The notes beneath the pieces are model-generated. The model saw nothing but the letters and a program-made list of their open reading frames with translations. It was not told where the DNA came from and searched no databases. A program made the position numbers and the translations under genes. Shown piece after piece: positions 3,237 to 60,747 of a stretch of 64,000 bases of DNA (the stretch's first letter is position 1; each line of letters begins with the position of its first letter). The stretch covers positions 62,001 through 126,000 of the forward strand of contig NTMA01000014.1 in the NCBI GenBank assembly GCA_002917075.1, written 5' to 3'. The stretch comes from Hawksworthiomyces lignivorus. Its lineage: Eukaryota; Ascomycota; Sordariomycetes; Ophiostomatales; Ophiostomataceae.

Positions 3237-3996
3237 CGTTATGTTCTACGTCATGGGGCTTAAAGAGACAACGATAACTTTGCATAACGATAATATTCTT
3301 CAAGGCTGCATTGGGAGTTGCCAAGGCTTATGGTTTAAATGCCACGAGGTATTCCTAGGAACATCGATGCCCGGCACACAGGGATCGCCTAATGTGCAAA
3401 TCATGCCTAACCTGTCATAGTTTTAGAATTCGGTCTATTAGGAGAGAATACTATTTAAGAGCCATTTGTTTTTTAAACACAACTACATGGTGCCAAAAAA
3501 AAAAAGGACTTACATAAACGAATACTGCAATCTCATCAGAAAACTTGGCCGCCTACGTAGTAAGGGAGGCAGCATCGCGTCCTCCTCGTGAAAGAAGAGC
3601 CATATATCTCCAGGATCAGTCACATAAAGGCTGTTGGAGGCGAAGTAGGTGAGTTGTGGCTGTCTTGGTGGTTGCAGTTCCCGATTACGCAGAATTGGGC
3701 AATGTGCAATTCCCCGCCCGTCCTTCGCAGCCGGTTGAATCGAACTGGCCAGCCGTGGCAAGACTGTCAGATTGACTAAACTATACCCCGGCCTTGGAGA
3801 CTGGCCAACCAGAGTGGTCTATTCCTCGTTCTTAAGGCACTACGGAGCAATTCATGTACTATTAAATGAGGCAATTAGGCTCGTCAGGCCGTAACTACAC
3901 TTAGATCAGACGTAAACACGAATAGCACGCTTAATCTAACACAACCTGCCCAATCTCGGATTCCAATATCCTGCTTCTTGGTAAAGTGGTACAACG
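3237..3996. other. Intergenic region between the two HET genes
   Basis: About 760 bases lie between the 5' end of the broken HET gene (minus) and the start of the intact one (plus), so this is a divergent promoter region. I see no gene, RNA or repeat beyond a short A-tract at about 3497-3506. Confidence 0.4.
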
Positions 3997-12015: not shown

Positions 12016-12087
12016 CTCTCCCGCCGGGAATTGAACCCGGGTCTACAGCGTGACAAGCTGTCATACTGACCACTATACTACGGAAGA
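12016..12087 (-). tRNA. tRNA-Asp (anticodon GUC)
   Basis: A 72-nt cloverleaf on the minus strand. The acceptor stem is TCTTCCG with CGGGAGA plus discriminator G. The anticodon stem ACAGC/GCTGT encloses loop TTGTCAC with anticodon GTC. The T arm contains GGGTTCAATTCCC. No intron is present. A T-run needed for Pol III termination is not obvious in the immediate downstream sequence, which on this strand begins with short T-rich tracts. Confidence 0.92.
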
Positions 12088-12515: not shown

Positions 12516-13997
12516 CTACAGCGACTGCTGGAGCTTTTCCAGTGCGTCTAAAAGCACGTCGACGTGCTTTTCCTCGAAAGTGAGCGTTGGCCGGAAGCGC
12601 ACCCCGTTTACACCACAGCCACCAATGTTAACGCCAAATTGCTTAGCTTTGGTAATGAACTCATCTCTTTTTGCGTGGTTGAAGGCGATGAAAGTGCCTT
12701 GACCTTTGCCCCGTAGGTCTGTGACTTGTTCTGGGTACTTGTTCGCAAATCCCTCCAGCCTGCTATACAAGAAGGCGCCGACTCGCGCATTCTGAGCCAC
12801 CAAGTCGTGCTTCTCGATTTCGTCTATGATGCCACGGAATAGAATGGCGCGGGCGGGATCGCCCATCCAGGTGTTGAACTGACGCCAAGCTTTGTTGGGG
12901 CGCAGCAGAGGGTTGCCGTAGTAGTATCCGGCTGTCTGCGCCTTCTTGCTGAAGGTGACAATGTCCGGCGGCGACGATGCAGGAAGATTCCAGTGCTCGT
13001 GCGCCCAGAACTTACCGGTCGCGCCGACGCCAGTCTGCACCTCATCGGCAATCAGCAGGACATTGTGCTTCTTGGTAACTTCGCGCAGCTTCTGGAAGAA
13101 GCTCGGCGATGCGTGGTTGTCGCCGCCCTCGGCCTGGATAGGTTCAACAATTACCGCGACAACTGGCAGATGCCACGTCTTGATCAGCTTTTCCACCTCG
13201 TCGATCGAAGCCTGCTCGGTCGCGGCGTTCTCGGCCGCGTATTTTTCGAGAGGGTATTTCAGCTGCGGAAACGTGGCCTGGGGCCAATCAAACGCGGGAA
13301 TGTCGATTTTGTGGATGGGCTTGCTGCGCGTGCAAGACAGAGACCCGAAGAGACGACCGTGGAAGGAGTTGCGGAAGCTGAGGATGCTGAGCTGCGGGGA
13401 TCCCGGTGTCTTGTTGTCCATACAAGACGAGAGCTCTTCCGCTGTGAATTCGACATCCGGGCCGCCACGCTCCAGCTGGCGGCGATACATAAAGGCGGCT
13501 TTGAAGGCAATTTCGTTGGCGTCGGACCCGGCAGCTGCAGTGAAGACGCGGTTGAGCCCCTTCGGAGCAACCTTTAGGATGCCATCGCTCACAATGTCTG
13601 CCCAGTTGCTGGAGGGGAATGCGCCAAGCGTGGGTCTGTTCACGATCGCATCGACCATCTCGGGGCTAGATGCCGTCTTTATTAGGGCTGGGTTATTGTA
13701 GCCCAGAGGTATCGATGCAATCTGGGAATACCTGCATGATCCCCTATTGTCAGCACGTATATGCCTATGGGATGCTAGCAGGAGGACATGGCCTTACACG
13801 TCAAGTAGCAGATTACCGTCCGGGTCGGCAATGTAATTACCAAAACTCTTGGTGTAATCGGCCACCAGGTTAACATTGCGATGGTCAAATACCTCATCTA
13901 GCCTTGCAAGGTATTTCTTGCTTTCCGGGCCGGGAATCGCCGTCTTAACCACCGGCTTCTCTGGCTCAGCGGTAGGGAGAGTTGCAAAGGTAGCCAT
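12516..13997 (-). CDS. 4-aminobutyrate (GABA) aminotransferase, about 471 aa
   Basis: Two exons, 13997-13798 and 13731-12516, with a 66-nt intron (donor GTAAGG, acceptor TGCAG) that joins to read LLLDVYSQIASIPLGYNNP. This is a class III PLP-dependent aminotransferase of the fungal GatA/Uga1 type. It shows GAFPSSNW, NSFHGRLFGSLS, the PLP-phosphate region VIVEPIQAEGGDNHAS, the IADEVQTGVGATGKFWAHEH block, and the PLP-lysine motif FSKKAQTAGYYY with lysines near residues 329-330. It converts GABA and 2-oxoglutarate to succinic semialdehyde and glutamate. Its length is normal for the family. The gene is divergent from a Zn2Cys6 regulator and lies 8.4 kb from a succinate-semialdehyde dehydrogenase, so the whole GABA shunt lies in this cluster. 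A housekeeping copy probably exists elsewhere in the genome, making this a cluster-specific paralogue; I cannot confirm that here. Confidence 0.93.
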
Positions 13998-14387
13998 CGT
14001 AGTAATTTGTCGGACCACCTGCTAGGCGCTAGACTATCCTGATAATAGCTGATAAGGAGAAAGAGTCGTGAGATAAGAGACGATGTATTTACCATTCTTA
14101 GAAAACACTACATAATATAGAGTAGACGTATAGCTTTATTATACCTCTTCGGGACCAATAAGTTTAATACAACATAATGCCCTACAAGAACCGTTGAATT
14201 GATGTCTGTAATAGGCTTTGGCTGGTGTGTAGTTGTGCAAGTCTGTCTGTACCTGAGGAAAGGCGTATCGTCTTGCCAAATCGGGACTGGGGCGGAAATC
14301 TATCTTGTTAGAGTAATAGTGAATAAATTACTGTACCAGTTCCGGCGCAAGCACTAGCGATATCTCTTATCTTCGGGCGACGTCGAG

Positions 14388-14427
14388 CGGAGAAAGCGGA
14401 GAAAGCGGAGAAAGTGGAGAATGGCGG
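14388..14427 (+). promoter_or_regulatory. CGG-N6-CGG direct-repeat array in divergent promoter
   Basis: In the 624-base region between the divergent aminotransferase and regulator genes, a 9-base unit GCGGAGAAA is repeated. CGG triplets start at 14388, 14397 and 14406, a TGG variant follows at 14415, and a slightly offset CGG is at 14425. Regularly spaced CGG direct repeats are the type of site that Zn2Cys6 proteins bind, and such a regulator is encoded immediately downstream. Binding is inferred from spacing and position only. Confidence 0.45.
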
Positions 14428-14621
14428 AGACGAGAGGATAGAACTCTGATCGGATAGTGAAAGGGTGAGATGAAGTTGATGCAGCGCCTAATTTGCCTTC
14501 ATCTGTCGCGGATACCCCTGCGCTGCCGTCAAGTCACAAGTAGGGTGCATTGTAGAGCAAAATAAGCTCTTGAGGTCGTCCGGGAAGACTTGTGGACGCC
14601 GGAGCCGGAGGAAATACGCTG

Positions 14622-16742
14622 ATGGAGCTGAATAATATCGGATACAGGTCCCGTTCAGGTGGGTAATATCCGATTCTTGTCATACTCGACTTTTTTTTTT
14701 TTTTCCTAATTTCATATCTAGGATGTCTGACGTGTCGTCGCCGGCATCGGAAATGTGACGAGAAGCGGCCGATCTGTAAGGCGTGCCAGCGGCGAGGCCT
14801 GGACTGCAGCTACCAGGTGACGCTGAAATGGGCAGACTCGCACAGCATCAGCACGTTCGACACGCTGTTGAACCAAAGGAGGAAGCCCACCAAACGCACC
14901 ACAACTTCCAGCCTTGGCCAGTTCCAAATCTCCTCTCCACCCAGAGTGGACGCTTCTTTTCATGCGGCGCCGCGCCAAGTGTCGGTCGATGAGTCGACGC
15001 TACTGGAGCCAGGCAGTTTCGAGCGGCTGCAGTACGGGCAGAGCCCTGCTATGGTCCCGGATCAGCAATGTGACCGCGACTATGATGACGCCGGCGAAGA
15101 GGTGGTACAAGTAGCCGCGTCCGACTGCGACGCATCACCGACGTCGGCCGTGTCAGATACCGGATGCGAGCTCCTTGGTGCGAATGATGGCGGCCTGCAA
15201 TTTGGCGACGCCGACCCTTGGGTTGTTGACAGCGGCATCAGCCAGCTTCTTTTTCACATGTTCCGCGAGCCAGGGGAAGACATTGCCTTCCTCTACTGTT
15301 AGTTTTCTCCATCTGCGACACCAGAGTCGGCCTACAGACTGACAGGCAGCGATGACTTTATAGATTTCAAGCGCGTCTGTACTTGCATCCCTGCTTATAA
15401 CAGCTCTGATAATCCATATCGCAAGCTGGCTATCGTCTCCCTGTCTTATCCCGTCCTCCTGCACGGCATACTGGCTGTATCTACGGGTCATATGTACAAT
15501 TACGGACGGAGCAACGAGGCTCTTGTCTCGTCACGGCAGGCGCGTGCGCTGAACTCGCTGCAGGAGGCCCTTAGCGGACTTCTGTGGAACAGGTCCACCA
15601 GCCACAGTGGCACAGAACCCTCAGAGAGCGACGGGAAATCGGTTCAACACAGGGGGACAGAATACAGTGGAAGCCCGACAGGCACAGGGAGCAGAGAGCC
15701 TTCAGGGTCTGTAGGGCATGGCCCGGGACCGCTTCTTGGCGAAAACAGTGTATTCTCTGTCTTATCTGCGCGCGAGATCGCCCTTGCAGCTGTGATGATG
15801 CAGACGTCTTCCGTGCTAATGACAGGTATCGGCAGTGTCGAAATACACATCAAATGCGCACTAGAATTTATTCGCGATCTAGGGTATCTCTATCAATCAG
15901 CAAGGCCCTTCTATGCACGCCTCCTTGTCCATCGCTTTGCGATGGTCGATGTCGTTCTTGCCCATCTGCGTTTCCGCCGCCCGCTGGCACCTCTGAACTT
16001 CTACATGTATCAGCCTAACGAGGAGCTCGATGATGAAGATCCGTCATTCCGCGAGATGCATGGCTGTCCTCAGAGGGTGCTCTGCTTTCTAGCACGAATA
16101 TCCGTCCTCAGCGCCGCAGTGGCAGAGAAAAATAGCTCCCACATTGAGATACAAACCATGGCCTACGACCTGGAGACGGAAATGCGCGTCTGGGGCCACA
16201 AATACCACGAAGCAATGGGTGGCGGTGGTGGTGGCTCCCGCCCTAGTGGAGGCGGCAGTGTGCCAGCGGCCTCTCTTCAGGAGAGCAGCACGCCGATCCG
16301 TTCCATCGAAGAAGCACGGGCAGACTTAGACGTGGTTTGCGAATGTTTCTATTGGACAGCGCACATTCTGCTACTTCGAAGGGTCTTTTTGGACCAGACG
16401 CGGTCCGCTCGGGTGCAGCTAATACGGCGTCAGCTGTTCCGGCTGATGGACAACCTGCAAGCAGGATGTGGTGCTGATTCCTCCCTTCCATTTCCATTCT
16501 ACATGGCTGCCCGTGAAGCTATGACCCTCGAGGAGAGAGATTGGGTACGCCGGAAACACTCTGCAATGATGGAAGCCTACCGGGACCAGTCACGCGTATA
16601 CATGATGGCGTCGACTGAGCAGATCTGGCAGAAAGCCGGCGAAGCTGAATCTCAGACTGCGGCAAGTGTGCCGTTTCTAGAGACACCATATGAGAGCTTC
16701 ATCCGCGAGTCAGACAAGAAAGCATCATATTTCATGTTCTGA
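14622..16742 (+). CDS. Zn(II)2Cys6 transcription factor, likely cluster regulator, about 669 aa
   Basis: Three exons: 14622-14658, 14722-15297 and 15346-16742. Intron 1 (donor GTGGGT, acceptor ATCTAG) splits the codon just before the zinc cluster. Joining gives YRSRSGCLTCRRRHRKCDE, with Cys at 14, 17, 24, 31, 34 and 41 and perfect C-x2-C-x6-C-x6-C-x2-C-x6-C spacing. Intron 2 (48 nt, donor GTTAGT, acceptor GACAG) removes an in-frame TAG at 15299 and connects to a fungal-specific regulator middle domain (NPYRKLAIVSLSYPVLLHGI), similar to the Fungal_trans_2 type. A Gly/Ser-rich patch lies near residues 395-410. It is nuclear and DNA-binding by family. It is divergent from the GABA aminotransferase and sits at the edge of the lactam-type cluster, so it is the natural candidate regulator; it resembles GABA/omega-amino-acid regulators in context only. 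The small first exon and the short second intron are the least certain parts. Confidence 0.8.
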
Positions 16743-17799
16743 GCATATCTTGCGTCTATGGCCTTCCTATAATTCAGTCTCAGCAAATTTTGTGGGCCAC
16801 CTTCTAAAGTCATTATATCCAAGTAATTATTGGCATAATAATAATGCAGCAGTTGTCAAAGAGTGAGGCGTCGCTCGCATTGCTACTTTCCGTATTGTTA
16901 CAGCTGCAGTCAAGGAGGTATTGTACATTGGCCAGGGTGATGCGATCTTCGCCGTGAAATGCAAGGAAGTGTGTACCGTAACTGAAAGACCCCGAACCGT
17001 GTAGATGGTCGCCAGGAGGTGGCTATGATAGGAAGTCGCAAATCCGAGGTTGTCTCCACGCAGACTCTGAAAACTGCTGCATAGAACAGAATCCGGCGAC
17101 GCATGGGCGGAGAAGATTACGGTTCAACAGAGGTGAAGTGCGTTTCATCAGTCTACTATGAAGACATAGATCTAGGCATGCTAAGCGAGGCTGAGCAGTT
17201 TATTCTTGAATGAAAAAATCTATGTTCTATCTTTTTCAGGGTTCGGGTATAACACTGACTAGCGTATGGAAGAAATGCAACAGATTTTGATACATCAGAT
17301 ATCCATAGGTATTAACAAGAAAAACAAGTTTAGATACAACGACGCTATTGCGCAGACTAGTAAGACAATTCTTGAATGGGATTAAGACGGCTAGAAAATT
17401 TCAAGTTGCATCACAGTTACTAGAAAAAGAAGAGCGTATCACTTTACTAAATTAGGCTAGGTTCGTTGCCGAGAATACTGAAATGTTCTTATTTGAGCGC
17501 CATTCTATTTTGTACAAGGTGAAGACTGAATCTTTGATACGTTTAATTTGTTCTAGGTTTATCTTGCATCTTTGGCGAATGAGATGTAAGTCAACCACAT
17601 AATCACAGTGATAACAACATATACGACTTGCTCATGCCTATCGATGCATATCTGTGTATCGCGAAGATATGCTGCCACTTCCACTTTTTAAACGTGCTAT
17701 CTCCTCTCTTTTCTTCCAGAATTCAAGCACAACCCAAACAGAGATTACATCAAAAATTGCAACAAATATATTGACCAAAGTTCACCAACAGGTCGCAAT
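16743..17799. other. Intergenic, about 1.06 kb
   Basis: This separates the regulator from the transporter. I see no coding frame with family similarity, no RNA and no repeat. The last 150 bases before the transporter ATG are pyrimidine- and A-rich, as expected for a fungal promoter and leader. Confidence 0.35.
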
Positions 17800-19502
17800 A
17801 TGGCAGACATTCCCATTCCCGGCACTGTCCACCTTGTGGACCTCTACGGGACATCAAGGCTGAGGCACGGACAAGGCGAAAAAGATATCATCTTAATCCC
17901 GCAGCCATCAGATGATCCTAATGATCCTCTCAACTGGTCAACCTTTCGCCGTCACCAAAGTAGCATCTTACAGATTGTATGGACATTCTTTGGCTGTGTC
18001 TACATCAACGGATTGTCGCCCGCATACCTGGTCATCGCTAAAGAGACTGGCATTACTGTTGCTGACTTGAACCTCGGTAACGGGTTGATGTATCTCTTTT
18101 TTGGCTTTGGAAACCTTGTTATGCAGCCTCTAGCTCTTAACTTCGGACGCCGCCCTGTCGCTGTTTTCTCTCTATTCATTACGTCGTTTCTTGTCTTGTG
18201 GTCCGCTTATATGAAGACGGCAGGAGAGTGGTATGGCAATCGCATTCTCATCGGTATCTTCTTTTCTAGCGTCGAGTGCCTTATTGAGCTATGCATTACC
18301 GACACCAAGTTTACGCATGAGCGCGGTGTGCATATGAGCTTGTTTAATACTTGTCTATGGGGAGGAGCCTTCTTGGCACCTATACCCGCCGGCTTTCTTG
18401 CTGATGCGGCTGGTTGGCGCTGGATTAACAAGATGTACTTCATTTTGGGTATCGTCACTTCGCTCGTTGTTTTTCTTTTCTTCGACGAAACCATGTTCTA
18501 CCGGCATAACACAGTTAATGAGTTCCTGGATCAGAGAGAGCCGGGTGGGAATGCCACCGCCACCACCACAGTGCAAGGTTCAGAAAAAAGCTCGACGAAC
18601 GAAGTTGACCAGCCGGCGCCGCTGCCATCGGAGACCGGCCAGACATACGCCGTGCAGTCATATTTCCAACGACTCCGGCTGTGGGGATTCCGCTCACCGC
18701 AGCAACCCAACACATTCTTCAAATTCTTCTTATTACCTATTCTTCTTCTTCGTTACCCCAACATCGTCTTCTCTGGTATACTGATTGGCAGCTTTTTGTC
18801 CTGGTACAACGTCCTAATCGGCAGTGTTGCTTTGGTCCTCGGTTCGGCACCATATAACTTCAGCACAAATATGATCGGCCTCACGTATATCTCATGTGTT
18901 ATTGGAAGTGCTGTCGGCTGTCTGATTGGGGGTCCGCTGAACGACAGGTTTACGGTGTGGATGGCGCGCCGGAACAACGGCACCAAGGAACCTGAGCACC
19001 GCTTATGGATCGCTATCGTACTGCTGATCCTCCATCCGGTGGGATGCGTTCTGTATGGCGTAGGCGCGGCTCATGAAATTCACTGGGTTGGCATATGCTT
19101 CGGCATGGGCCTTGTAGCACTTGTCGTCGTTTTGGGATCCACCCTTTCTTTGAACTACTTGATCGACTGCTACAAGGAGGTTGCCGGAGAGTCTCTCGTG
19201 ACGGTCATCATGATTCGCAATGTTATTGGTACGTGTTACTGTGATGGTCGCCCTGCCGACCGATACATAATGAAAACTCGCATACTGACATTCGTCTTGA
19301 ACTAGGATTTGCATTCTCATATGCGGTTACTCCTATGATTGACAATCTTGGCCTCCAGAACGCATTTCTTCTAGTTGCCTTCCTTGGAATGGGTATAACA
19401 AGTTTGTGCTTCGTTATGATCGTCGTGGGCAAGAAGATGCGGAAGCAGTCGGCCGCCTCCTACTGGAAGTTAGTTGAGGCACATGGATTCAAGGCTCATT
19501 GA
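17800..19502 (+). CDS. MFS transporter, drug:H+ antiporter/synaptic-vesicle-like type, about 541 aa
   Basis: Two exons, 17800-19228 and 19306-19502, with a 77-nt intron (donor GTACGT, acceptor AACTAG). The join completes the last two membrane helices (VIGFAFSYAVTPMIDNLGL, then LVAFLGMGITSLCFVMIV). The N-terminus has the NDPLNWS motif shared by fungal MFS transporters that begin with a DP.(N/D)P(L/Q)NW segment. Loop 2-3 has the LNFGRRPVAV signature. About 12 membrane segments are visible, with a charged Ser/Pro-rich central loop near residues 245-295. It is a plasma-membrane permease by family. Its position between the cluster regulator and the LamB/YcsF gene suggests it imports the cluster's substrate, perhaps a lactam, amino acid or organic acid; the substrate cannot be read from the sequence. 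Confidence 0.88.
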
Positions 19503-20771
19503 TGTAGTCGTAGGCGCCGATGACACGATGGACACACATTTACTACCATATAGGGGCTGACTTTATCATTGAATTCACCTTCCTGCTAGAAAGGCACAAA
19601 TTTCTTTTCTTCTCTCTACTGTCTCCGGCGCTTAAATTTGACTTGAGCTTGTTCTTCGTTATTAAAAATTACAGCCATTCTTATAGAGATGGTGGCTTAT
19701 TTATAACACTATATACATGTATATTGAGTCGGAGGCTGAGGCAAGACCCCAGCCCTGTGAAAGATCTGCCGTTGCTCATGTGATAGCTACAACGTGTATA
19801 GAGAGCGACCACGGCTTCCCTAAGCATTAGGTGAGGACCGATCATCCAGGGTCCTTAGTCGGTATGGAGCAGTAATTTTGCAGCCTCATATCAAAAAATA
19901 ACTGAGAAATGGAGATAGCTTAGAGATAGGACAACAGGAATTCAACAACCTTATCACCGCTCTTGCTAGGCACCTATTCGAATTGCCCTTGGCTGCTAGA
20001 AGGCGCTTCATTGATGCAGAGCTTTAGTGAAGGCTGACCCGCGATCTATGACGTCGATCGCGTCTCACTGAGTTCGCTGCCCGACTACGACTTCACTGTG
20101 CTTACACTCCCGCCCAGAGCGCTGTATGGTGGCCAATGGCTAGCCTCTCTACATCTATGGGGTCGCCGCTTGAGCAGTCGTCTCCCGTTTCAATATTCAT
20201 AGATACGTTTAGAAAAGCCTCCTTCTACAGCTAGAAATAGTAATGAGATATACGTATCAAGATTGTTGTTATATCGCAAGCGGAAGTATGCGAGCTTCCA
20301 GTGCGAGAGAAGGCCGCTATTATGTAAGGTAATTAATAACCTTGAGAATTTAGCTACCCCGACCACTCTCCGTCCGTCTTTTGTATAAGCAGGCTCGATT
20401 TTTAGGACGGATTTGCTCTGTTGCACTTGTGGCAGGCGTCGGTGAAACAAATCCCACCTACAATTGATTTTACGTTATAGCAACAAATGTCAAGAACCAT
20501 GATAAGGAACAACCTTAGGATTACCCGCTCTTAGAGTACTAGCGTGACGAGCTGCCTAATACAGGAAGCTTTACCGCGCCTAAAGCAGCTGTGGGCGACT
20601 TGCAACTAGCGTTGAGAATAGTATCATAGGATGACGGATGCCTGTGCATAATGTATATCTTTTAGCAACATTCTATGACGCGGTAGAATGTGTACTGTAC
20701 AATCGATGCTCCTTAAATTCGTCCTATAATGAAACTCAAAAGCAATATATTTTCGCTACGTTCAAGCCGCT
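19503..20771. other. Intergenic, about 1.27 kb, convergent
   Basis: This lies between the 3' ends of the transporter and the LamB/YcsF gene. No recognisable gene, RNA or transposon is present. A minus-strand frame at 20190-20450 lacks any family motif. Confidence 0.4.
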
Positions 20772-21785
20772 TCACCAACCCCTTCTCTTGTTGATTTCAT
20801 CAACACCTCTACGGCACGCTTTGGCATTCTCGAGCGCCGTTGGCATGTCGGAATGAATGCAGAACATAAAGGGCTTGCCTTCGAAGCCAAGTCTAATTGT
20901 CTTGCCTTCGTTGTCGGCAACTGAGTCCTCAATGCCAATTGACATGGTGCGATTGTAGATATCCTCAACTGTTGCCAGTTTGCTCTCCTTGACTGGCAGA
21001 AGCTTTTTGCTGCCATTGTATTGTAAATCGACGTAAGCCTCTTCCACAAAGGTCAGGCCGTACTTGGCACACATAGCCCCTTGGTGTTCGGTGCCTTTGG
21101 ATCCAAATACCGGTACGCCAAAGACGGCACAAGCCCGAAGCACAGCATCCATGATGACGAGGTCACGCTGCATGTAGAAGAAGAGCTCCCCGTGGGGCTT
21201 AATATGATTCAACGGAACACCCTCGGCATCGAGCATAGACTTGATGGCTCCAACTTGATACAGGACCATGGCATACATGTCTTCGGGATCAATTTCCATC
21301 TTGCGGCGTCCAAATCCAAAGCGGTCTTGCTCCAGGCGTATGTGAGTAAGTGTCTGCACAGTTGAACAAGAGGGGAATAGCCAGCATAAATCAAACTATG
21401 GAGACGAGATATCGGAGAGCTTTCAGGTACCTTCAAGACCGGGGTGAGCTCCGATTTTGACACCATGTGCTTTAGCGAGACGGATGGTCTTCAGCATGGT
21501 CGTAGGATCCCCCGCATGGAAGCCGCAAGCGATATTTGCATAATCCACAATGTTGATGAGTTCTTCATCTGGACCCTAATCATGTTAACATTAGAGCTTA
21601 TGACCATATCGCTTAGTTGCATCAACATGGAATGGGAAGAAAGGCTGGATTCGAGAAGTGAAAATCATGCTTTTCTCACCAAAATTCCGCAGAGAAATTC
21701 AATATATGTTACTTACCATCTTCCACCTACCGAAACCCTCGCCCATATCACAGTTAATTTCCACTTTTTTGGAATATTGTTCCAT
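20772..21785 (-). CDS. LamB/YcsF family protein (5-oxoprolinase subunit A-like), 255 aa
   Basis: Three exons: 21785-21717, 21575-21431 and 21325-20772. The introns are 141 nt (donor GTAAGT) and 105 nt (donor GTACCT, acceptor CAAG). The spliced protein shows all family blocks: [14 protein letters not shown] at the N-terminus, [43 protein letters not shown], and [17 protein letters not shown] at the end. The length equals that of bacterial PxpA. In bacteria PxpA works with PxpB (AHS1/KipI) and PxpC (AHS2/KipA) as an ATP-dependent enzyme that opens the lactam ring of 5-oxoproline to glutamate. The other two components are domains of the large biotin enzyme 4 kb away, so I infer that the two proteins cooperate. 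The name 'lactam utilisation' comes from a bacterial locus. Ring opening of this cluster's substrate is inference. Confidence 0.93.
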
Positions 21786-22380
21786 ATTGGCGGTGGATCG
21801 GCTGCTGCTGATGTCAAGCAGACGCTTCTCTGAAGGTTGGTTTTCTTCACGTAGGCAGGCTCGAACTATGTGTATACTCTTTTCCCCTCTACCTAAGCCA
21901 GTCCTCTTTTTGGACACTATCTATCCTTATACTTAACGGTAGGCTACATGCTTCCGGTCTCGGGAAATTCCCCGTATTAGAGTCTGCGTTACTTGGGTGG
22001 TATTCTGATCTGGCCTTTTGGCGTGTCGCATTGCCTATTTAGGTTTTAGCAACATTGTTAGCACACTACCGGTTGACACGCTAGCCGATCGCAATATCTA
22101 TTCGTTTGCAACACTGTGTTAGTTAGTAAAGACCGACATAACAGAATCCACGTGGCCCAGGAATGCAGTGATTGATAAAGTAGACAGCAATGTGTGTGCT
22201 GTTAGTTCTAGATCTCAGGACCGCCTCTCAGATTGCCTTTGTTGAGTCCCAGCGCACTTACGCCGCCGGAGGTATAAATGTGTGTAGGCGTGTAGACGAA
22301 AACGAGTTAACCATGTGTCGTATGTTGCTACCAATATCTCTACTCATATCTCTGTTGCCCCGTCATTGCATATAGCTAGC
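21786..22380. promoter_or_regulatory. Divergent promoter region, LamB/YcsF and SSADH
   Basis: About 600 bases separate the two divergent start codons, which fits coordinated control. I found no CGG-N6-CGG array like the one upstream of the cluster regulator. Confidence 0.35.
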
Positions 22381-23968
22381 ATGGGTCACATTGTGCCTGG
22401 GGTAAGAGACTAAGAACTCTGTGACCCTCCCATTGCAGGCTCATACTTTTCCAAGATTTATCAAGGGAAAATCAAATGAAGAACAAGATTGCTAATTGCC
22501 ATCGCAGCTGAAAGACGCTAGCCTCTTCATCAAGAAATGTTTCATCAACGGTGAATGGGTCGACGCGAGCAGCGGCCAAGTATTCGAGGTTCATGATCCC
22601 GCGACAGGAAAACTGGTCGGAACGTGCGCGGAATGCACTGCTGAAGATGCCGAGAAAGCTGTTGCTGCCGCTGCCGCCGCTCTTGGGACGTACCGCCAGC
22701 TGACGGGCCGGGAGAGATCCAAGCTCCTGCGAAAATGGTACGACCTGATGGTAGCCAACGCTGAGGACATTGCGACGTTGATCGCATGGGAAAGCGGAAA
22801 GCCTCTTGCTGATGCGAAGGGAGAGGCTGCGTACGCTGCAAATTTTTTTGAGTGGTTTTCCGAAGAGGCCCCCCGGATCTACGGCGATGTCTTTCCTGTC
22901 TCCGCGTCTGGGCAACGTGCGTCGACGATTCGACAGCCGCTCGGCGTATGCGGGCTCATCACCCCGTGGAACTTCCCCGCGGCTATGGTGACCCGAAAAG
23001 CTGGACCGGCGCTTGCAGCGGGATGCACGGTGGTAGTGAAGTCTCCCGGAGAGGCACCGTTTACGGCAAACGCACTAGCGGAGCTGGCAAAAAGGGCCGG
23101 CATTCCTCCCGGCGTATTTAATGTCGTTACTGCTCTACAGAATACTGCACAGATCGGCGAGGTGCTGACAAGCTCAGCTGCTGTGAAGAAAGTCTCCTTT
23201 ACAGGCAGCACAGGCGTAGGCAAACTCCTAATGAAGCAATCGTCGTCGACGCTCAAGAAACTGTCCATGGAACTGGGGGGCAATGCTCCTTTTATCGTCT
23301 TTAACGACTGCGTCAGTATTGATGCTGCCGTCATGGGCTGCGTTGTGGCCAAGTTTCGCAGCTCAGGGCAGACATGTGTCTGCGCTAACAGGATCTACGT
23401 CCAAGGCGCCATCTACGACCAGTTTGCGGAGAAACTAGCAGCTAAAGTGAAAGAGTTCCGAGTTGGCCATGCGTTTAGTGAGGGTACAACACATGGACCT
23501 TTGATTCACGAACGCGCCGTCGCGAAGGTTGAACACCATGTCAAAGACGCCATTTCCAAGGGTGCCATGGTCCTCGTAGGAGGCGCCAAACTTCCTGAGC
23601 TTGGGAGCAACTTCTACCAGCCAACTGTGCTGGTAGGGATGAAGCAGTCCATGGCCCTGTCCTGCGAGGAGACGTTTGGACCCGTTGCGGGTCTCTTTGC
23701 GTTTGAGACTGAGGAGGAAGTCATAAAGCTCGCCAATAACACGGCAGTTGGCCTAGGTGCATATGTCTATACTAGCGACATCAATAAAGCTGCTCGTGTT
23801 GCCGAAGACTTAGAAGTAGGTATGGTTGGCGTCAACACTGGACTCATCAGCGACCCATCCACTCCCTTTGGCGGCGTCAAAGAATCTGGCTTTGGAAGAG
23901 AAGGTTCCAAATATGGTATTGAGGAATATGTGGTTACCAAAACTATTACTTTAGGAGCTCATAGATAG
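22381..23968 (+). CDS. Succinate-semialdehyde dehydrogenase (NAD(P)+), about 493 aa
   Basis: The main exon, 22508-23968, is certain. It reads LKDASLFIKKCFINGEWVDA and runs through the aldehyde dehydrogenase signatures: ITPWNFPAAMVTRKAGPALA, FTGSTGVGKLLM, the catalytic-Glu motif MELGGNAPF, and the catalytic-Cys motif SSGQTCVCANRIYV. It ends with FGGVKESGFGREGSKYGIEE, which is diagnostic of SSADH. No in-frame ATG occurs at its start. It is preceded by a good intron end (TGCTAAT, then CGCAG). A 21-nt first exon at 22381-22401 followed by GTAAGA fits in phase, but this short exon is tentative. The enzyme oxidises succinic semialdehyde to succinate, completing the GABA shunt begun by the aminotransferase at 12.5-14.0 kb. 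Confidence 0.92.
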
Positions 23969-24366
23969 AAGTCCGCTAAATGAGGTACTAAGAAATATAG
24001 AGGACATGCAGCTCGTGTCTATAATCCTACATGCCTGACCAGTGATGATACTGTTGGAACCGACAACATTCATTTTCCCTCATTGCGTGAACACATGGTA
24101 AATGCTTCGGCCTATGACTTGCGCGTGTACACACTATTTAAATCCTCAAATATCATAATATCATCCGCCCAGATAGCCTTTCTAAATTGGAAAGCCGGTA
24201 ACGGAGGGAGGTTGGTAGAGCCCGCTAGCTATATATCAAGTCCATATGTCGATGGAAACCGGCTGTTAACGAAGAAATATTTGTTAGCCAATGGAGTTTA
24301 GCGTTCCTACTTGCCCTCAAATACTAACTAGATCAACCACCGTTACCTTTTAATTTCTTGTTCGCC
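23969..24366. other. Short intergenic region between two co-directional cluster genes
   Basis: About 400 bases lie between SSADH and the tartrate/malate-type dehydrogenase. No gene or repeat is seen; it presumably holds a terminator and a promoter. Confidence 0.35.
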
Positions 24367-25556
24367 ATGAGTGCATCCCGGAATTCGTCAAGGCGATACA
24401 AAATTGCTTCAATTCCAGGTGATGGAATTGGACCAGAAGTCGTGGCTTCTGCTATTGAGATTGTCACAAAGCTAAGCCAGGCTCTTGGAACCTTCTCCAT
24501 CGAGTTTACGCATTTACCATGGGGTACAGACTACTACAAGAAAACGGGACAATACATGCCTAAGGATGGACTCAAGACACTCAAGCAATTCGAAGCGATT
24601 TTGTTTGGCAGCGTCGGCATGCCAGGTAAGCTCGAGTCGCTCCGAGGTGTCTGCTACGAATGTTCCCACACTAATTGAATACGGAAGACGTTCCGGATCA
24701 CATATCCTTGTGGGGACTTCTGCTGGCGATACGTGGCCCGCTTCAACAGTACGCAAATGTTCGGCCCATTCGAGCGTTCCCTGGCATCGATACTGCTCTG
24801 CGGACCAAGCATGACAAAGACATCGACTGGGTCATCGTCCGCGAAAACTCGGAAGGCGAATATGCGGGCCAAGGTGGCAGGACACATCGTGGCCAGCCGT
24901 GGGAGATTGCGACAGATGTTGCCATCTTCACAAGAGTTGGGGTGGAGCGGATAATGCGGTTTGCATTCGAGACGGCTAGGTCCCGGCCGCGGAAGCTTCT
25001 CACTGTCGTAACAAAGAGCAACGCGCTGCGGAACGGTCTCGTGCTCTGGGACGAAGTCGCAGAGGAGGTGGCTGGCGATTTTCCGGATGTGAAGTGGGAC
25101 AAGGTGTTAGTGGACGCAGTCACCATCCGCATGGTGCGCCACCCGCAGTCGCTGGATACTATCGTGGGCACGAACCTACACATGGACATCATCTCCGACT
25201 TGGGCGCCGCCTTGGCCGGCTCGATTGGCGTGGCTGCATCGAGCAACCTGGATCCAAGCAGGGTCAACCCGTCCCTGTTTGAGCCCGTCCATGGTAGCGC
25301 ATTCGATATCATGGGAAAGGGTGTGGCCAATCCGGTTGGAACGATCTGGTCTTGCGCAGAGCTGCTGAGGTGGCTCGGAGAGGAGCATGCTGCGGAACTG
25401 CTGCTCCAATGTGTTGGGAGCGTGTTAGAGGCCGGCATCAAGACAGCCGATCTTGGGGGCACGGCAAGTACGAAAGACATTACGAAAGAAGTTTGCCATG
25501 CTGTGGATGCGGCTACGGCGCAGTCGGATGGGTCCTCGCAATTCATTACGAGATAG
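24367..25556 (+). CDS. Tartrate/D-malate-type decarboxylating dehydrogenase, about 375 aa
   Basis: Two exons, 24367-24625 and 24688-25556, with a 62-nt intron (donor GTAAGC, branch CTAAT, acceptor GGAAG). The protein belongs to the isocitrate/isopropylmalate dehydrogenase fold: IASIPGDGIGPEVVASAIE at the start, FGSVGMPDVPDHISLWGLLL, VRPIRAFPGIDTALR, VIVRENSEGEYAGQGG, the Lys/Asp active-site blocks VTKSNALRNG and TNLHMDIISDLGAALAGSIG, and FEPVHGSAFDIMGKG. The P-G-I-x-T-A-L-R and ENSEGEYAG forms resemble tartrate dehydrogenase/D-malate dehydrogenase (TtuC/DmlA) more than leucine-pathway enzymes. Such enzymes oxidise and often decarboxylate a 2-hydroxy acid with NAD+ and a divalent metal. Its place between SSADH and the biotin enzyme suggests a catabolic task, but no step in a simple GABA route needs it. 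Confidence 0.85.
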
Positions 25557-25954
25557 CTGAGATCATATGTAAAAATGGATTTTGTGCAGCAGCTCACAGT
25601 TCTCGGCGTATTTGATCTTTCGAACTAAGACACATTAGGAATATAGAGGCTGATTTCCTATTTTGGACTAACAAAATTTCAGTTTCGACTGATAGAACCC
25701 ACTGGAGTACTGTGGAGTAGCGCTGACGCCATATGGATGCACTTAGATAAACATGGCTAAGTCTCTACAGCTTCTTCATGGAATGTGGTTCTCGACCACT
25801 TGCTTTGGGAAGCCCTAAGTCTTCTGTTCGTCCGTATATGCAGAGCACTTTCCACCTTCTTTCTGTCTCGAGTTAATGAACACAGGCAGAAACTCCAGCC
25901 TATTACCTCCATAGCGCACGACCAATCAGAAGCCGACACCCCAAGGAATTAGCT
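25557..25954. other. Short intergenic region before the biotin enzyme
   Basis: About 400 bases with no recognisable gene. It contains the probable promoter of the large carboxylase-like gene. Confidence 0.35.
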
Positions 25955-28900
25955 ATGGGGCACGGGCACTTGCAGAATATCAGACGGGTCTTAATCGCTA
26001 ACCGCGGTGAGATCGCCGTACGGTGTCTCGGTGCCTGTCGGGCTCTCAGAGTGACGTCCATTGCTATCTACACAGCATCAGATGCGACCTCGCTACATGT
26101 CACATTAGCTGACTTGCCGGTTCAACTAAAGGGTGATGGTGTAGCCGGTTACCTAGATATGTAGGTGGGCGAGGTTTAAAGCTTCTCAGCTCTGTAGATA
26201 CTTTGTCTCGTGGGAAGGTTTTTAACATTATCTGGCAGCGAAAACATTCTTCAAATATGTAAGGAGCACTCTGTGGATGCCATCTTTCCAGGATACGGGT
26301 TTCTCAGTGAGAATGTCGAATTTTCAAGGCGCGTGACGGACGCCGGAATAATTTTCGTTGGTCCGTCGACGGACTCCATCACGGAAATGGGTCTTAAGCA
26401 CCGGGCGAGGGAGATCGCCACGGCAGCAAACGTCCCTGTTGTTCCAGGAACTAGTCTTCTCTCCTCAGAAGAAGAAGCGCTCAAAGCAGCTGGACAGCTA
26501 CAGTACCCGGTCGGTTGTTTGCCGTTTGACTTGACTTTTATATTTCTTGGTCTAATCCTCTTTATGCAGGTTATGCTTAAAGCGACTGGTGGTGGAGGCG
26601 GCATGGGTCTTCAGATCTGCTATGCGCCGGGCCAAGTCAAAGAAGCGCTGGATAAGGTTCGCAGCCGAGGATCGAAACTTTTCAAAAATTCCGGTGCCCT
26701 CCTCGAAAAGTACTACCCGCGCAGTCATCATATCGAGGTGCAGATCTTCGGTAATGGCACCGACGTTGTCCACTTTGGAGAGAGGGAGTGCAGCGTGCAA
26801 CGGCGACACCAGAAGGTACACCGCTTTCGGCGTGTTCTGCACCCTTTATCACATCGTTTCCCATATTCCGCCCACTAACGAATCCTTTCCGCCAGGTGAT
26901 CGAGGAGTGCCCCAGTCCATTCGTAGAACGCCATCCAAATCTCCGAGAGCGGCTGGCGAGCTGTGCAGTGTCATATGCTTCCTCGCTCAACTACAAGTCT
27001 GCCGGCACGGTGGAGTTCTTGGTCGATGATGACACCGGTGACTTTTTCTTCTTGGAAATGAACACTCGACTTCAAGTCGAGCACGGCATTACGGAGATGT
27101 GTTATGGTGTCGATTTGGTAGTGCTCATGCTTGAGCAGGCAGACCAGGAGAAAGCAGGGGCCGGTGGTATCCCTTCATCGTATCTCCGCAAATTTTCTCG
27201 ATCTCGCCCGGACGGATGTGCAATCGAAGCCCGCGTATATGCTGAGGACCCAAGTCAAGGATTTGCGCCAAGTCCTGGTATCCTGCAGAATGTGCATTGG
27301 CCAAGCCGTGTCGGTTTTCGGGTTGACACTTGGGTACAATCTGGCCAAAATATCTCGCTTCATTATGGTGAGTCAGTCTTTGCTCAGCTTACCTACAATC
27401 CTAAAAATCAATCGGAGATAAAAATCAATGCAGAAGATGATTTTCTAATACGTGAATTATTAGATCCACTTCTAGCAAAGGTCATGGTGCATGCACCCAC
27501 CCGCGATGAGGCCATCAAGAAGATGGTATGGGCATGTACAGAAGGAGTCCGTTTGCAAGGACCGCGCACAAACCTCGACTTTGTGAGGAGCGTGGTGCTC
27601 TCAGACGATTTTGTCTTGGGTAATACCCTCACTAACATGCTGGACTCTTCATTTGTATATCAGCCGCGCGGAGTAGAGGTGATTAGCCCCGGCTCGCTCT
27701 CCACCATCCAGGACTTCCCAGGTCGAACGTCCATCGGCCATGGTATCCCGAAGGGTGGGCCCATGGACAGCTTGTCAGCTCGTATTGCAAACTTGATAGT
27801 GGGAAATGCTCCTACAAAAGAAGTGGTCGAGATTACGCTTGTAGGACCGACGCTTCGGTTTCTGTCCTCCGCCGTGGTGTCTATATGCGGCGCTGATGCT
27901 ACAGTAACCATCGACGATAGCTGCAAGCCAATGTGGTCAGCTCTGATTATCCAAGCAGGCCAGACGTTGAAAATCGGTGCCGTTGATGGCCCGGGTTGTC
28001 GTATCTATCTGGCAGTCAAAGGGGGGTTCCCAAACATACCTTTTATCTTTGGTTCCAAATCTACAGTGCCAGCTCTGAAATTTGGTGGCTGCCAAGGGCG
28101 TGCTCTTCGTGCAAAAGACTTTCTCGAATTAGACGAAGCATCTCCGCAATGGGCCGCTGCTACCTGGGAATATACATTGCCGTCTCATTTAGTGCCGAAC
28201 GTTGATGTGCGGGAGATCTATGTTATGCAAGGTCCACATGACTCTGACGACATCATGACCGCTGCAGACCGAGACATGCTCTACGGAACGCAATGGAGGG
28301 TCAGCCACAACTCCAGCAGGGCGGGTATCCGGATGCTTGGTCCCGTACCACAGTGGTCGCGTACCAACGGCGGAGAGGCCGGCTCTCATCCGTCGAATTA
28401 CCTCGAGTGGGTTTTGCATCCTTTTCTCGCAATGAGATATTTTATGAGTCGCATCTTCAATCCAAGAAGCTGACCGTTCACCTCTAGCTATGGTTACCCA
28501 TCACCTGGTGGTGTCAACTGGGGGGGCGATTCGCCCTGCATATTTTCTGTAGACAGCCCGAACTTTGGCGGACTGGTCAGCTCCTCGACCGTTATTTCAG
28601 CCGACCTATGGAAACTGGGGCAATTGAAACCAGGTGCAACCTTTTACATGACGCCAGTGTCCTTGGATGATGCGCTCCGGCAGAGTCGACGTGTGGATGA
28701 ATATATCTCTGTCGTGGAAAAACACCTTCAAGCGCAAGATAACCCGGCAAAAGCCGTGACCGATAGGATATCGTGGACGCTTCCACGCTGCCAGGTAGCG
28801 CCGGACGCAGCTATATTAAAAGTTGTTAACGCAGATACTAGAACTCCTCCCAGGTCTAAGGTGGTATATCGGCAGGTAGGTCATCTCTTCAGATGCGCCA

Positions 28901-30173
28901 TTTTCATGTACAGTTAGTGATACAACTGGTGATTAACAAACTTGGACAGGGCGCAGACAGGTTTCTCCTCGTAGAATTTGGCGAGCAGTCTACGGATGTG
29001 GCCATCATGGTTCGCATTCATCTTTTCGTCGAGAAGCTGCGGGCGGAAACAGGCCTCAAAGTTCTCACCCCCCATGTTGGTTCAGTGATGATAGAGTATG
29101 AGCCGCGAGAGCTTAGCCACAGTCAAGTGCTGGCGCTAGTTCAGAATATTGAATCAAGCATTCAAGTCAACATGGACATCTCCATTCCCTGTCGCGAATT
29201 CCGGCTGCCACTAGTCATGGATCATCCAGCTATTCAGCAGTGCATTCAGAAATACATGGAGACAACTCGAGACAAAGCAGCCTACCTGCCCGATAATGTT
29301 GAGTTTCTACGGAGGTGCAATGGTCTAGAGACGCGCCGCGACGTTTTTACGACGCTTTTGAACACGGACTACCTGGTTGCAGCCGTCGGATTTCTCTGTG
29401 GAGCGCCCGTTCTCTTCCCACTGAGTCAAAAGACAATTCTATGTCCGAAGTACAATCCAACGCGCGTGTCAACACCCGGAGGCACTCTGGGTATTGGCGG
29501 CTCAATTCTCACAGGCTATCCTGTTGAGCAACCTGGAGGCTACATGATGGCGGCGAGAACCTTGGAACTGTGGGATACCTACGGCACTAAGCCAGGATTT
29601 GCAGAGGAACGGCCGTGGTTATTTGAACCTTTTGACAAGGTCAGGTTCTACGAGGTTAGTGTCGATGAATACGATTCTCTGGCAGCAGACGTCGCCGCAG
29701 GACGATACAGCTGGCAAATTAGCGAGTCGGTATTCAATCTACAACAAGTATACAATACGTCTCATGCTGCAAAATACAACTCGGACGTTGTCCAGTATAA
29801 AGAACGGCAGCAAAATGCTTTGGCTGAGCAAGATAGACTGGAACGAAAGCTATACAACGAGTGGAGAATAATGCAGGCATCAGCAGCCGAAGGACCATGC
29901 AGAGAGAGAGAAAATGCAGCAGTAGGAGATACTAACGAGGACACGATTATCATTACGTCCCATATGCCAGCGAATCTCTGGAAGGTAGAAGTCCAATTAG
30001 GAGAGGCCCTATATGAGGGTCAGACTGTCGCCGTGCTCGAGGCCATGAAGATGGAAATCAACATTCAGGCACCAAAAGGTTCAGGAGGGTTTCGAGTTCG
30101 GTCCATTCCCAGCAAACCAGGTAGCATCGTAAATACTGGAGACGTAGTTCTAGTTGCTACACGTGAAGCATAG
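25955..30173 (+). CDS. Biotin carboxylase - AHS2 - AHS1 - biotinyl fusion (urea-carboxylase-like / PxpBC-like), about 1249 aa
   Basis: Seven exons: 25955-26160, 26239-26509, 26570-26815, 26896-27367, 27464-28406, 28488-28875 and 28950-30173. Every junction keeps frame and restores family motifs. Domains in order: biotin carboxylase, about 1-460 (VLIANRGEIAVRCL, FPGYGFLSENVEF, ATP-loop KATGGGGGMG, EMNTRLQVEH); AHS2/CT_A_B, the PxpC/KipA type, about 466-770 (VISPGSLSTIQDFPGR, GGPMDSLSARIAN); AHS1/CT_C_D, the PxpB/KipI type, about 820-1065 (FLLVEFGEQSTD, RVSTPGGTLGIGG); and a C-terminal biotinyl domain with EAMKMEI, where Lys1209 is the biotin site. This is the layout of urea carboxylase, but the allophanate hydrolase domain or partner of urea degradation is absent. 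A LamB/YcsF gene, the missing third 5-oxoprolinase subunit, sits in the same cluster. A lactam or 5-oxoproline substrate is therefore at least as likely as urea. Intron 4 (27368-27463) is 96 nt, in frame and stop-free. Confidence 0.92.
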
Positions 30174-31270: not shown

Positions 31271-32080
31271 TCAAGAGTGCTTGACGGTGATCGAGTTAGC
31301 GCTGGAGATGGCAGCAGCACCAACCAGCTTGTTGCTCTGGACCATGCCAAACACGGTGGCCTCAGACAGAGGAACGGTGCCGCTGGTGGAAGAAGCAGAG
31401 GCATCGGTGAACTGGACGGTGCCGAAGTTGGCCAGGGGTACCAAGGCGCCGTTCATCTTGTAGTCCTCGACGATCCACTCGGCGTTGGTCTGGCAGAGCA
31501 CGGCGGTCTCGGCGGTAAAGCTCTGAGAGACGCTCTGGCCAGTGCTCTTGTTCTCAATGGTGACCTTGCCTGCGGTGTTTGATGAGATAGTGGCAGTCAA
31601 GGTGAGGACGTCGCCGGCGCTGATGTCGAAGCCAACCCAGTTGTGGGATGCGCCGGGGTACCACTCGTACCAAGGAGTGTAGGTGACGGTGTCGCCCAGC
31701 ACGTTGAAGTCAACGCCCGTCTGTAGGATGGCCGAAGCGCAGGTATCACCGTCGATGCCGACCCAGGCGCTGGCGTGATAGGCGGTGGTAGCCGAGCCAC
31801 CAGCAGGTGTCTGCGGCGTGGGGACAGTGAAAGTGCCAGTGACCGAAGTGAAGCCCGTGCCGACCAGAACAGCGCCGGCCCAGTTGTTGGAGTAGGTGGT
31901 GTGGTAGGTACCCTCATCCTCGCTGCGCGCCGCAAGGCCGGACACGTTGGTGGCGTTGACGGAGTAAGGGCGGTGGCTGCTGCGCATGCGGCGCGACTCA
32001 CGGGGGATAAGTTGCACGGGCGAGGCAAGGGTAGAAGTGGCCCCGAACAAGGCGGCAATGGCGAAGAAAGAGAACTGCAT
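31271..32080 (-). CDS. Secreted eqolisin (peptidase family G1, aspergillopepsin II-like), 269 aa
   Basis: A single exon. Residues 1-20 are a signal peptide (MQFSFFAIAALFGATSTLAS), followed by a basic propeptide of about 35 residues (PRESRRMRSSHRPYS). The mature part begins near TYSNNWAGAVLVG, a G1-family hallmark. The catalytic Gln is in AILQTGVDF (Gln120) and the catalytic Glu in NAEWIVEDY (Glu201), with WYEWYPGASHNW between them. These acid glutamic peptidases are secreted and act at low pH. The length is typical of the family. The open frame and both catalytic residues are intact. A tandem repeat lies between a likely TATA box and the start codon. Confidence 0.95.
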   Translation of the reverse strand: MQFSFFAIAALFGATSTLASPVQLIPRESRRMRSSHRPYSVNATNVSGLAARSEDEGTYHTTYSNNWAGAVLVGTGFTSVTGTFTVPTPQTPAGGSATTAYHASAWVGIDGDTCASAILQTGVDFNVLGDTVTYTPWYEWYPGASHNWVGFDISAGDVLTLTATISSNTAGKVTIENKSTGQSVSQSFTAETAVLCQTNAEWIVEDYKMNGALVPLANFGTVQFTDASASSTSGTVPLSEATVFGMVQSNKLVGAAAISSANSITVKHS

Positions 32081-32154
32081 GATGACTGATTTGTTTGTAG
32101 CTGGGTAGTCAAGAGATTAGGTATTATGGATATCGTTGATGGCTTGGGTGGAGA

Positions 32155-53601: not shown

Positions 53602-54583
53602 GATGTGCGACGGTGATTGGAGGGAGTTGGCTAGGTGAAGGAGAAGTGAAGCGTGGGCGGCAATAATCTGTAGAGAGAAAATGAGGCCAAAAAAGACGAA
53701 AGAGAGTCAGTCTCTCACGGTTGGCGGTCACGTCGGGTCAGCCGCCCTAAGATCAAAATGAGAAAAGGAAAGAAGCGTAGGTAGGAAAGCAATTCATATA
53801 CTTGTTGTTTTTAGTCTGGGAACCTAGGTGACACGAGTGCTATGATGGACACTCTACCCGCGTTTTGGTGATTTGATAGTATCATTCCTCTTCCACGTTT
53901 TTACGAGCTACTTTGTTGCCAAACGGGTCTTTTTATCTTTCCAACAGTTCTTCTCTTCTCCCAGTCTTAGATCGGCTCATACCAAGTTCTTCCACGTTGA
54001 AAGGCTAGTTTTAGTTCATAGTAGCGTTAACAGCGTAGACCCTGGTCCATCTAGCGTACCCCCCCTGGTTCCCCCAATCATTTCTTTCTTCCCCAGCCCC
54101 AGATTCTCCAGTTCTGCTGTTCTCCGCAGTTGTTAGGGGAAGAACGCTTATCCACTGCCTGGCACATCCACAGCTCACGTTGTCGTTTTTCTTTACATAT
54201 CAATCGTGTAGAATCTTATTGCCTGTCTTGTTTCGTTGTAAATACGAATAAATCGTGCTCCTGAGTGGCCAAACCTGATAATACGTGATGAATATGTCCG
54301 GAAGAACGAAAGGATTGGAAACTTGACTGTAAGCGATACCGCAAAACAGCCGTGGCATGTGGCCGGCACCATATTGTCATATTAGATGTCTATTTTACTT
54401 GGAAAAAAAAGGGGGAGGAATGGACTCGATTCGTGCGCAGGCCAACAAGTCACATCAAGGAATATTAGCACCAAATATAGGGCTCAGTTAAATTATCGGC
54501 CCATTCTATTACGCAGCGCTAACAACAAGCTGCCGTTGTTCTGTCATCGATTAATTGATGATCTTAGATTTTCTTCATATACC
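53602..54583. promoter_or_regulatory. Upstream region of quinate permease
   Basis: About 980 bases between the permease ATG (minus) and the stop codon of the activator gene (minus). It contains a candidate QUTA half-palindrome at 54138-54153 and CT-rich tracts, but no gene. Confidence 0.4.
54138..54153. promoter_or_regulatory. Candidate QUTA/QA-1F binding site (weak)
   Basis: The 16-mer GGAAGAACGCTTATCC matches the qa activator consensus GGRTAARYRYTTATCC at 14 of 16 positions, with one half-site (TTATCC) perfect. It lies upstream of the quinate permease gene. Confidence 0.45.
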
Positions 54584-60589: not shown

Positions 60590-60747
60590 ACTAAGGATAC
60601 GATAAAAAAGGAGTTTGGGTAAACAGGACGTAACGGGTGGTACTTTTGGTATCAAAATTCATTCGATATTCGGTGCTCTAGATTTTACCGAGTTTATGTT
60701 ACATGTCCGTCTAAAGGCGCTGCGCAAATGTATACAACTCTATGCTT

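Follow-up and report, generated by a model that had tools for sequence, protein, structure and literature searches.

A candidate lam-type gene cluster for gamma-lactam catabolism in Hawksworthiomyces lignivorus

Results

The stretch of DNA analysed here (the window) comprises 64,000 nucleotides, positions 62,001 to 126,000 of contig NTMA01000014.1 in assembly GCA_002917075.1 of the ascomycete Hawksworthiomyces lignivorus; it belongs to the contig that we call C46, one of 191 that make up the 43.7 Mb genome. Its subject is a candidate cluster for lactam catabolism, consisting of seven modelled genes which occupy window positions 12516-30173 (17.7 kb). An earlier note on this DNA, made from the letters alone, had named seven such genes there, and our gene models, together with the families found by hidden Markov model (HMM) scans against Pfam and NCBIfam, bear this out. 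A GABA (4-aminobutyrate) aminotransferase of 471 residues is encoded on the reverse strand at 12516-13997 in two exons (13798-13997 and 12516-13731) and scores 731 bits against TIGR00699, for which the cut-off is 567. It is followed on the forward strand by a Zn2Cys6 regulator of the Fungal_trans_2 type, identified by HMM (14622-16742; exons 14622-14658, 14722-15297 and 15364-16742, including a candidate intron), and by a two-exon major facilitator superfamily (MFS) transporter of 541 residues (MFS_1; HMM match; 17800-19503). LamB, a 255-residue member of the PxpA/YcsF hydrolase family (LamB_YcsF, 266 bits), lies on the reverse strand at 20772-21785 in three exons (21717-21785, 21431-21575 and 20772-21325, the last with the stop codon). 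The remaining three genes are on the forward strand. They encode a succinate-semialdehyde dehydrogenase (SSADH; 22496-23968; TIGR01780, 666 bits against a cut-off of 646) whose start codon is provisional, a two-exon, 375-residue tartrate/D-malate-type dehydrogenase of the Iso_dh family (24367-25557; TIGR02089, 502.7 against 470.4 bits), and LamA (25955-30173), a protein of 1249 residues in seven exons for which HMM matches give the order biotin carboxylase, CT_A_B, CT_C_D and biotinyl domain, with the carboxyltransferase (CT) lysine at K1009 and the biotin lysine at K1209.

The introns of these models, including those of LamA, are GT-AG. The regulator contains an in-frame TAG at 15300-15302, which a candidate 66-nucleotide GT-AG intron (15298-15363) would excise; 57 candidate introns fit the frame, two share the best donor score, and a 48-nucleotide alternative scores equally with the 66-nucleotide one. 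A broken regulator gene was considered and dropped because a plausible intron can take out this stop. Given the candidate intron and the provisional start of the SSADH gene, all seven genes can be modelled as intact.

Searches of the whole genome found three LamB loci and three LamA loci, and each LamB lies within 10 kb of a LamA; under uniform placement, the chance of this three-of-three linkage is approximately 3e-9. By chance, a GABA-aminotransferase-type gene (five in the genome) would be expected within 20 kb of any one locus in about 0.5% of cases, and an SSADH-type gene, with eight as an assumed rough count, in about 0.7%. For 16 of the 18 fungal species named in both our LamA and our LamB listings, the two relatives are on contigs of identical size, against 0.6 expected on the presumption that contigs are drawn from 40-Mb genomes, contig identity being read from equal size in the protein listings. 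This count covers 66 named LamA species (the named rows of P0001-P0075) and 63 named LamB species; it omits unnamed rows, repeat rows per species, LamA rows P0076-P0120 and Daldinia eschscholtzii (P0067), which is absent from the LamB list. The LamA listing holds the best 120 of 378 matches ranked by likeness to the window LamA, so that LamA-type rows are over-represented in it relative to true urea carboxylases. In Scytalidium and Claussenomyces the LamA and LamB locus numbers are consecutive, and two rows (P0024 and P0036) are predicted single-chain LamB-LamA fusions which are possibly gene-model artefacts; P0036 seems to include a translated intron and may be an artefact of annotation. Distances among LamA proteins correlate with those among LamB proteins (r 0.90 over 18 pairs, from 15 species plus the three of this genome), a value matched in none of 10000 permutations and to which shared species history adds.

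The domain order and catalytic residues of LamA resemble those of urea carboxylase and urea amidolyase. Six checked biotin carboxylase residues, whose positions we placed by the E. coli numbering, are kept in all three LamAs of the genome, as are the biotin lysine and the CT lysine; at a seventh site, in the glycine loop, the window copy has Gly and the copies on contigs C90 and C153 have Ala, and the site is variable across the family. An alignment of 123 rows shows K at the CT lysine site in 122, the remaining row having a gap, and at the biotin lysine site in 113, the others being seven gaps and three different letters. K1009 of LamA aligns with the CT general-base lysine, K1605, of K. lactis urea amidolyase; the passage of PMC5770610 that deals with this residue assigns K1605 the part of general base and reports a strong loss of activity for the K1605A substitution. 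Bacterial PxpB, unlike LamA, has arginine at this place in 16 of the 16 loci caught by our first search pattern. A looser pattern adds L073, L074 and L080, with arginine by eye at the aligned place, and also gives four matches in L067, L072 and L090 which we take for other proteins. P. horikoshii PH0987 carries arginine as well, and lysine is present in nine of nine bacterial CT chains of the urea carboxylase type.

Ten sites are invariant in these nine bacterial chains, and the LamAs of the window, C90 and C153 match at none of the ten. Across the alignment, 121 of the 123 rows have zero or one of these urea markers, P0108 has ten and P0120 has nine, one and the same alignment having served both to choose and to score the sites, and some partial rows being without some of them. 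P0108 and P0120, which come from metagenome-type sources, are the sole urea-type rows among the best 120 of 378 homologues. K. lactis urea carboxylase, compared by eye, has the urea letter at window LamA positions 490, 679, 706, 954, 988 and 1008, and a LamA-like G at 1020.

We compared 33 prokaryotic loci. In nine, a single stretch that spans the whole query carries both CT halves, and the fetched DNA of eight of these (all but L065) includes an allophanate hydrolase; only five (L060, L063, L064, L065 and L070) gave a biotin carboxylase match, so that we infer, rather than observe, the urea carboxylase label for all nine. The other 24 loci have separate CT halves, with a LamB match in 19 and none in L069, L073, L080, L085 and L091. 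A CT fused to biotin carboxylase beside LamB was not found among the 33 loci; in L078, biotin carboxylase is encoded by a separate gene some 4.5 kb away from LamB, and L079 has a weak match of this kind. The fungal pair joins a carboxylase of the urea carboxylase kind with a hydrolase of the PxpA kind.

The three LamA-LamB pairs of the genome share 43-45% identity in LamA and 37-42% in LamB, and they appear to be old, having diverged anciently. The C153 pair is divergently arranged (lamB 74353-75179, lamA 75743-79690) in a neighbourhood of about 16.5 kb (70.4-86.8 kb) which also holds an SSADH-type aldehyde dehydrogenase, a flavin mononucleotide-dependent dehydrogenase, a Fungal_trans regulator, an amino-acid transporter and an ornithine-type class III aminotransferase; the two exons of the last were scanned separately, and neither reaches the TIGR01885 cut-off by itself. 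This cluster is perhaps for an ornithine-derived or other lactam. On C90 (65-76.6 kb), lamA (about 64993-68811) and lamB (about 71390-72285) have an amidase gene in between and are accompanied by genes for a Zn2Cys6/Fungal_trans_2 regulator and an UNC-93-like membrane protein that scores slightly below the MFS_1 cut-off. Among the gene models of these two loci, that of the C153 LamA includes one rough junction which departs from GT-AG, that of the C90 LamA ends a few residues early, and one intron of the C90 LamB is GC-AG. The idea that the C90 LamA is without a biotinyl domain was dropped, as a separate last exon encodes one. A regulator and a probable transporter accompany the lam pairs at three loci, an aminotransferase and an aldehyde dehydrogenase at two, while the further genes differ in family from locus to locus; the recurring neighbours point to repeated assembly of lactam catabolic clusters. 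GABA-aminotransferase-like and SSADH-like genes also lie within a few kb of each other at 185-189 kb of C153 and at 795-802 kb of contig C1, where the genome searches matched no lam genes.

In a quick tree of 44 rows chosen from the 123, the window LamA falls in a 22-row set (Shimodaira-Hasegawa-like approximate likelihood ratio test, SH-aLRT, 99), nearest to proteins of Geosmithia, Eremomyces, Thozetella, Clonostachys and Xylaria; the Aspergillus rows and the C153 copy fall in a 13-row set (SH-aLRT 100), and the C90 LamA is on a long, lone branch. Close relatives of the window LamA and LamB occur in distant classes, with Eremomyces and Verruconis beside Xylaria, Clonostachys and Geosmithia. 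This scattered taxonomy hints at horizontal transfer or old paralogy.

Around the cluster, a tRNA-Asp (12016-12087) flanks one side, a gene for a Peptidase A4 family protease (31274-32116) adjoins the other, and a HET-domain (heterokaryon incompatibility) gene lies at 3985-5940. Window positions 52258-63894 hold a probable quinate utilisation cluster, with genes for a sugar-type transporter, a Zn2Cys6 regulator, a 929-residue protein with shikimate kinase, dehydroquinase and shikimate dehydrogenase domains, a shikimate dehydrogenase-like protein and an AP_endonuc_2-fold protein. We take the 929-residue protein to be of the repressor type and the AP_endonuc_2-fold protein to be of the dehydroshikimate dehydratase type.

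Discussion

We propose, with a probability of roughly 70%, that the window carries a lam-type lactam catabolic cluster which would convert a gamma-lactam to GABA and GABA to succinate. The presence of GABA aminotransferase and SSADH in the cluster suggests a gamma-lactam that opens to GABA, most likely 2-pyrrolidinone or a close analogue. The MFS protein would import this lactam. LamA would charge its biotin with ATP and bicarbonate and, to judge from the conserved catalytic residues, move the carboxyl group onto the ring nitrogen, whereupon LamB would hydrolyse the activated N-carboxylactam to a carbamate which sheds CO2 to leave GABA. The aminotransferase would then produce succinic semialdehyde and SSADH would produce succinate, these being the established functions of families whose cut-offs the two proteins pass. 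Control of the pathway probably falls to the Zn2Cys6 protein. The parallel set at C153 (SSADH-type aldehyde dehydrogenase, LamB, LamA, regulator, transporter and aminotransferase) also counts for a lam pathway.

The core of this system is already known genetically. In the passages concerned, PMC8016842 describes A. nidulans lamA and lamB as lactam-catabolic genes under AmdR, together with gatA, gabA and amdS, and PMC3412718 connects ycsF of B. subtilis with lamB of A. nidulans, a gene for the utilisation of lactams (e.g. 2-pyrrolidinone). The LamA and LamB families are present in both fungi, and are linked here, and a GABA transaminase is placed downstream in both (gatA there and, as predicted, the clustered GABA aminotransferase here); unlike in A. 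nidulans as described, the GABA aminotransferase, SSADH, transporter and regulator are clustered with lamA and lamB. The regulator of the window cluster belongs to the Fungal_trans_2 type, presumably unlike AmdR. What appears to be new is that the whole predicted route is clustered, together with a regulator and an MFS transporter of its own. In the literature searched (open-licence papers only) we found no account of the full gene set, of three such loci in parallel, of a distinct LamA clade or of the proposed carboxylation mechanism, and no biochemical explanation for fungal lactam use.

The earlier note had proposed an ATP-dependent lactam opening which feeds GABA transaminase and SSADH, with a 2-pyrrolidinone-type gamma-lactam as a more likely substrate than 5-oxoproline, and both proposals are supported by the families, the linkage and the precedent. 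Its remark that no characterised fungal pathway has this composition fails, since the passages just cited put A. nidulans lamA/lamB lactam genes with gatA in print. Its analogy to bacterial PxpABC stands in part: LamB is a PxpA homologue, and CT_C_D and CT_A_B are the PxpB and PxpC families, but LamA is a single-chain, complete biotin-dependent carboxylase, with biotin carboxylase and biotinyl domains and the urea-carboxylase-type lysine in place of the PxpB arginine, and not PxpB plus PxpC. The tartrate/D-malate dehydrogenase of its seven-gene set has no regular association with lam genes elsewhere, being on a contig of equal size in one of nine species.

A Trichoderma segment described in PMC8675399 holds a 'urea carboxylase', LamB, an MFS transporter and a zinc transcription factor, varies by species in its genomic place, and is of a urea-cluster status which its authors, in that passage, call not known. 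Like the window cluster, it brings a LamA-type gene together with LamB, an MFS transporter and a zinc regulator; it differs in having an NADPH dehydrogenase and a Cys2His2 factor, and the same passage leaves GABA aminotransferase and SSADH unmentioned. A T. stromaticum protein, P0048, is among the rows with zero or one urea marker. The A. nidulans protein P38095 (1241 residues) is presumably LamA. It served as the 'urea carboxylase' query in PMC3073912, and the relevant part of that survey reports no amidase of that kind in A. nidulans. The benzoxazolinone (FDB) clusters of Fusarium were considered as a known counterpart and set aside: PMC10512309 contains no GABA, pyrrolidin-, semialdehyde, urea carboxylase or tartrate dehydrogenase terms, and PMC4726666 no aminobut-, semialdehyde, tartrate dehydrogenase, urea carboxylase, LamB or aminotransferase terms.

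Several observations weigh against the proposed lam-type cluster or its likely substrate. The window LamA lies outside the clade of Aspergillus LamA-like proteins, which are mostly 51-54% identical to the C153 copy (A. aculeatus, 60%) and 43-45% identical to that of the window; since Aspergillus LamA is closer to C153, the 2-pyrrolidinone cluster may be the one on C153, with some other lactam as the substrate at the window locus. This comparison used Aspergillus proteins other than the A. nidulans sequences, the listing having no row labelled A. nidulans lamA; A. fruticulosus and A. undulatus, which we take to be near relatives of A. nidulans, are included. Additional GABA aminotransferase and SSADH genes are present elsewhere in the genome, and a single stand-alone allophanate hydrolase is encoded on contig C105. 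Among 63 CGG half-site arrangements none was counted as a shared promoter signal, the best occurring in three of the five promoters (CCG-N4-CGG, for example, is observed in three against 1.2 expected), and no common word of at least 10 bases occurs in at least three of the five, with one 9-base word in three. Finally, the tartrate/D-malate dehydrogenase has no role in the proposed route and is probably a neighbour or accessory.

This dehydrogenase would gain a role if the substrate were a hydroxylated gamma-lactam such as 4-hydroxy-2-pyrrolidinone, opened to 4-amino-3-hydroxybutyrate, transaminated to malate semialdehyde and oxidised by SSADH to malate, with the dehydrogenase decarboxylating D-malate to pyruvate. 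Such a route assigns a step to every cluster enzyme, and it suits a protein which exceeds the tartrate dehydrogenase cut-off, has a tartrate dehydrogenase/decarboxylase as its best solved homologue, is encoded between SSADH and LamA, and whose nearest other copies in the genome are merely 46-47% identical. We nonetheless consider it unlikely: the best 120 matches are relatives of mostly 64-74% identity, nearly all of the named ones being fungal, and the dehydrogenase shares a same-sized contig with LamA in just one (Phlyctema vagabunda) of nine species named for both, a set chosen by eye outside which A. terreus, A. calidoustus, A. aculeatus and A. unguis also differ by eye. It looks like an ordinary fungal enzyme and is more simply explained as a neighbour. 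Similarly improbable is that LamA and LamB open 5-oxoproline or another amino-acid lactam, as PxpABC does, with the GABA genes present for some other reason. Cells require 5-oxoproline recycling, the CT domains of LamA are homologous to PxpB and PxpC, and LamB just exceeds two PxpA subfamily cut-offs (NF003814, 226.6 against 226 bits; NF003816, 215.1 against 213). LamB misses three PxpA equivalog cut-offs, however, and LamA misses those of PxpB and PxpC; PxpB has Arg where LamA has Lys; and the cluster is without a glutamate-directed enzyme and contains SSADH and a GABA transaminase above its equivalog cut-off. Eukaryotes possess an unrelated 5-oxoprolinase, according to the passage on this point in PMC13274462.

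The database labels of many fungal LamA homologues invite the reading that LamA is a urea carboxylase, which would make allophanate from urea for completion by an allophanate hydrolase encoded elsewhere, with LamB incidental. TIGR02712 urea carboxylase is indeed the best family for LamA, K. lactis urea carboxylase is its best solved homologue, and the C105 protein could supply the hydrolase. We regard this as very unlikely, as the LamA score of 1226.1 bits is below the TIGR02712 equivalog cut-off of 1303.85, none of the ten markers shared by all nine bacterial urea-carboxylase-type chains is present, and the genome encodes urease. The only AH_C match of the genome is that on C105, a contig without lam genes, and none is fused or adjacent to LamA, whereas LamB is linked to LamA at all three loci here and in 16 of 18 species. 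The marker residues and the LamB linkage make a urea role for one of the three LamAs improbable. The lack of a shared promoter motif, and a dehydrogenase that is not a conserved neighbour of LamA, would suit seven chance neighbours with no common pathway, but the linkage statistics and the parallel C153 locus make this hardly credible.

Returning to the lactam cluster, LamA looks like a hybrid, with the catalytic residues of the urea carboxylase type, without the urea markers, and partnered by a PxpA-type hydrolase. On these residues, the simplest reaction would have LamA carboxylate the lactam nitrogen and LamB then hydrolyse the product, in contrast to PxpBC, which is assumed to phosphorylate its lactam. 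We consider the odds evenly balanced that LamA-LamB constitutes its own mechanistic class of lactamase (biotin-dependent N-carboxylation, then PxpA-type opening with CO2 release), that ascomycetes carry several such pairs, each in its own cluster for a different lactam, and that many deposited fungal 'urea carboxylase' sequences belong here.

This scheme would turn the genetically known use of lactams by fungi into a testable two-enzyme reaction. Many fungal 'urea carboxylase' proteins look LamA-like, and the scheme predicts that many proteins so named do something else; the Trichoderma segment (PMC8675399) and the survey query P38095 (PMC3073912), as described in the passages cited, would become clearer if these proteins are LamA. 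It also points to ATP- and biotin-driven lactam hydrolases of perhaps several specificities.

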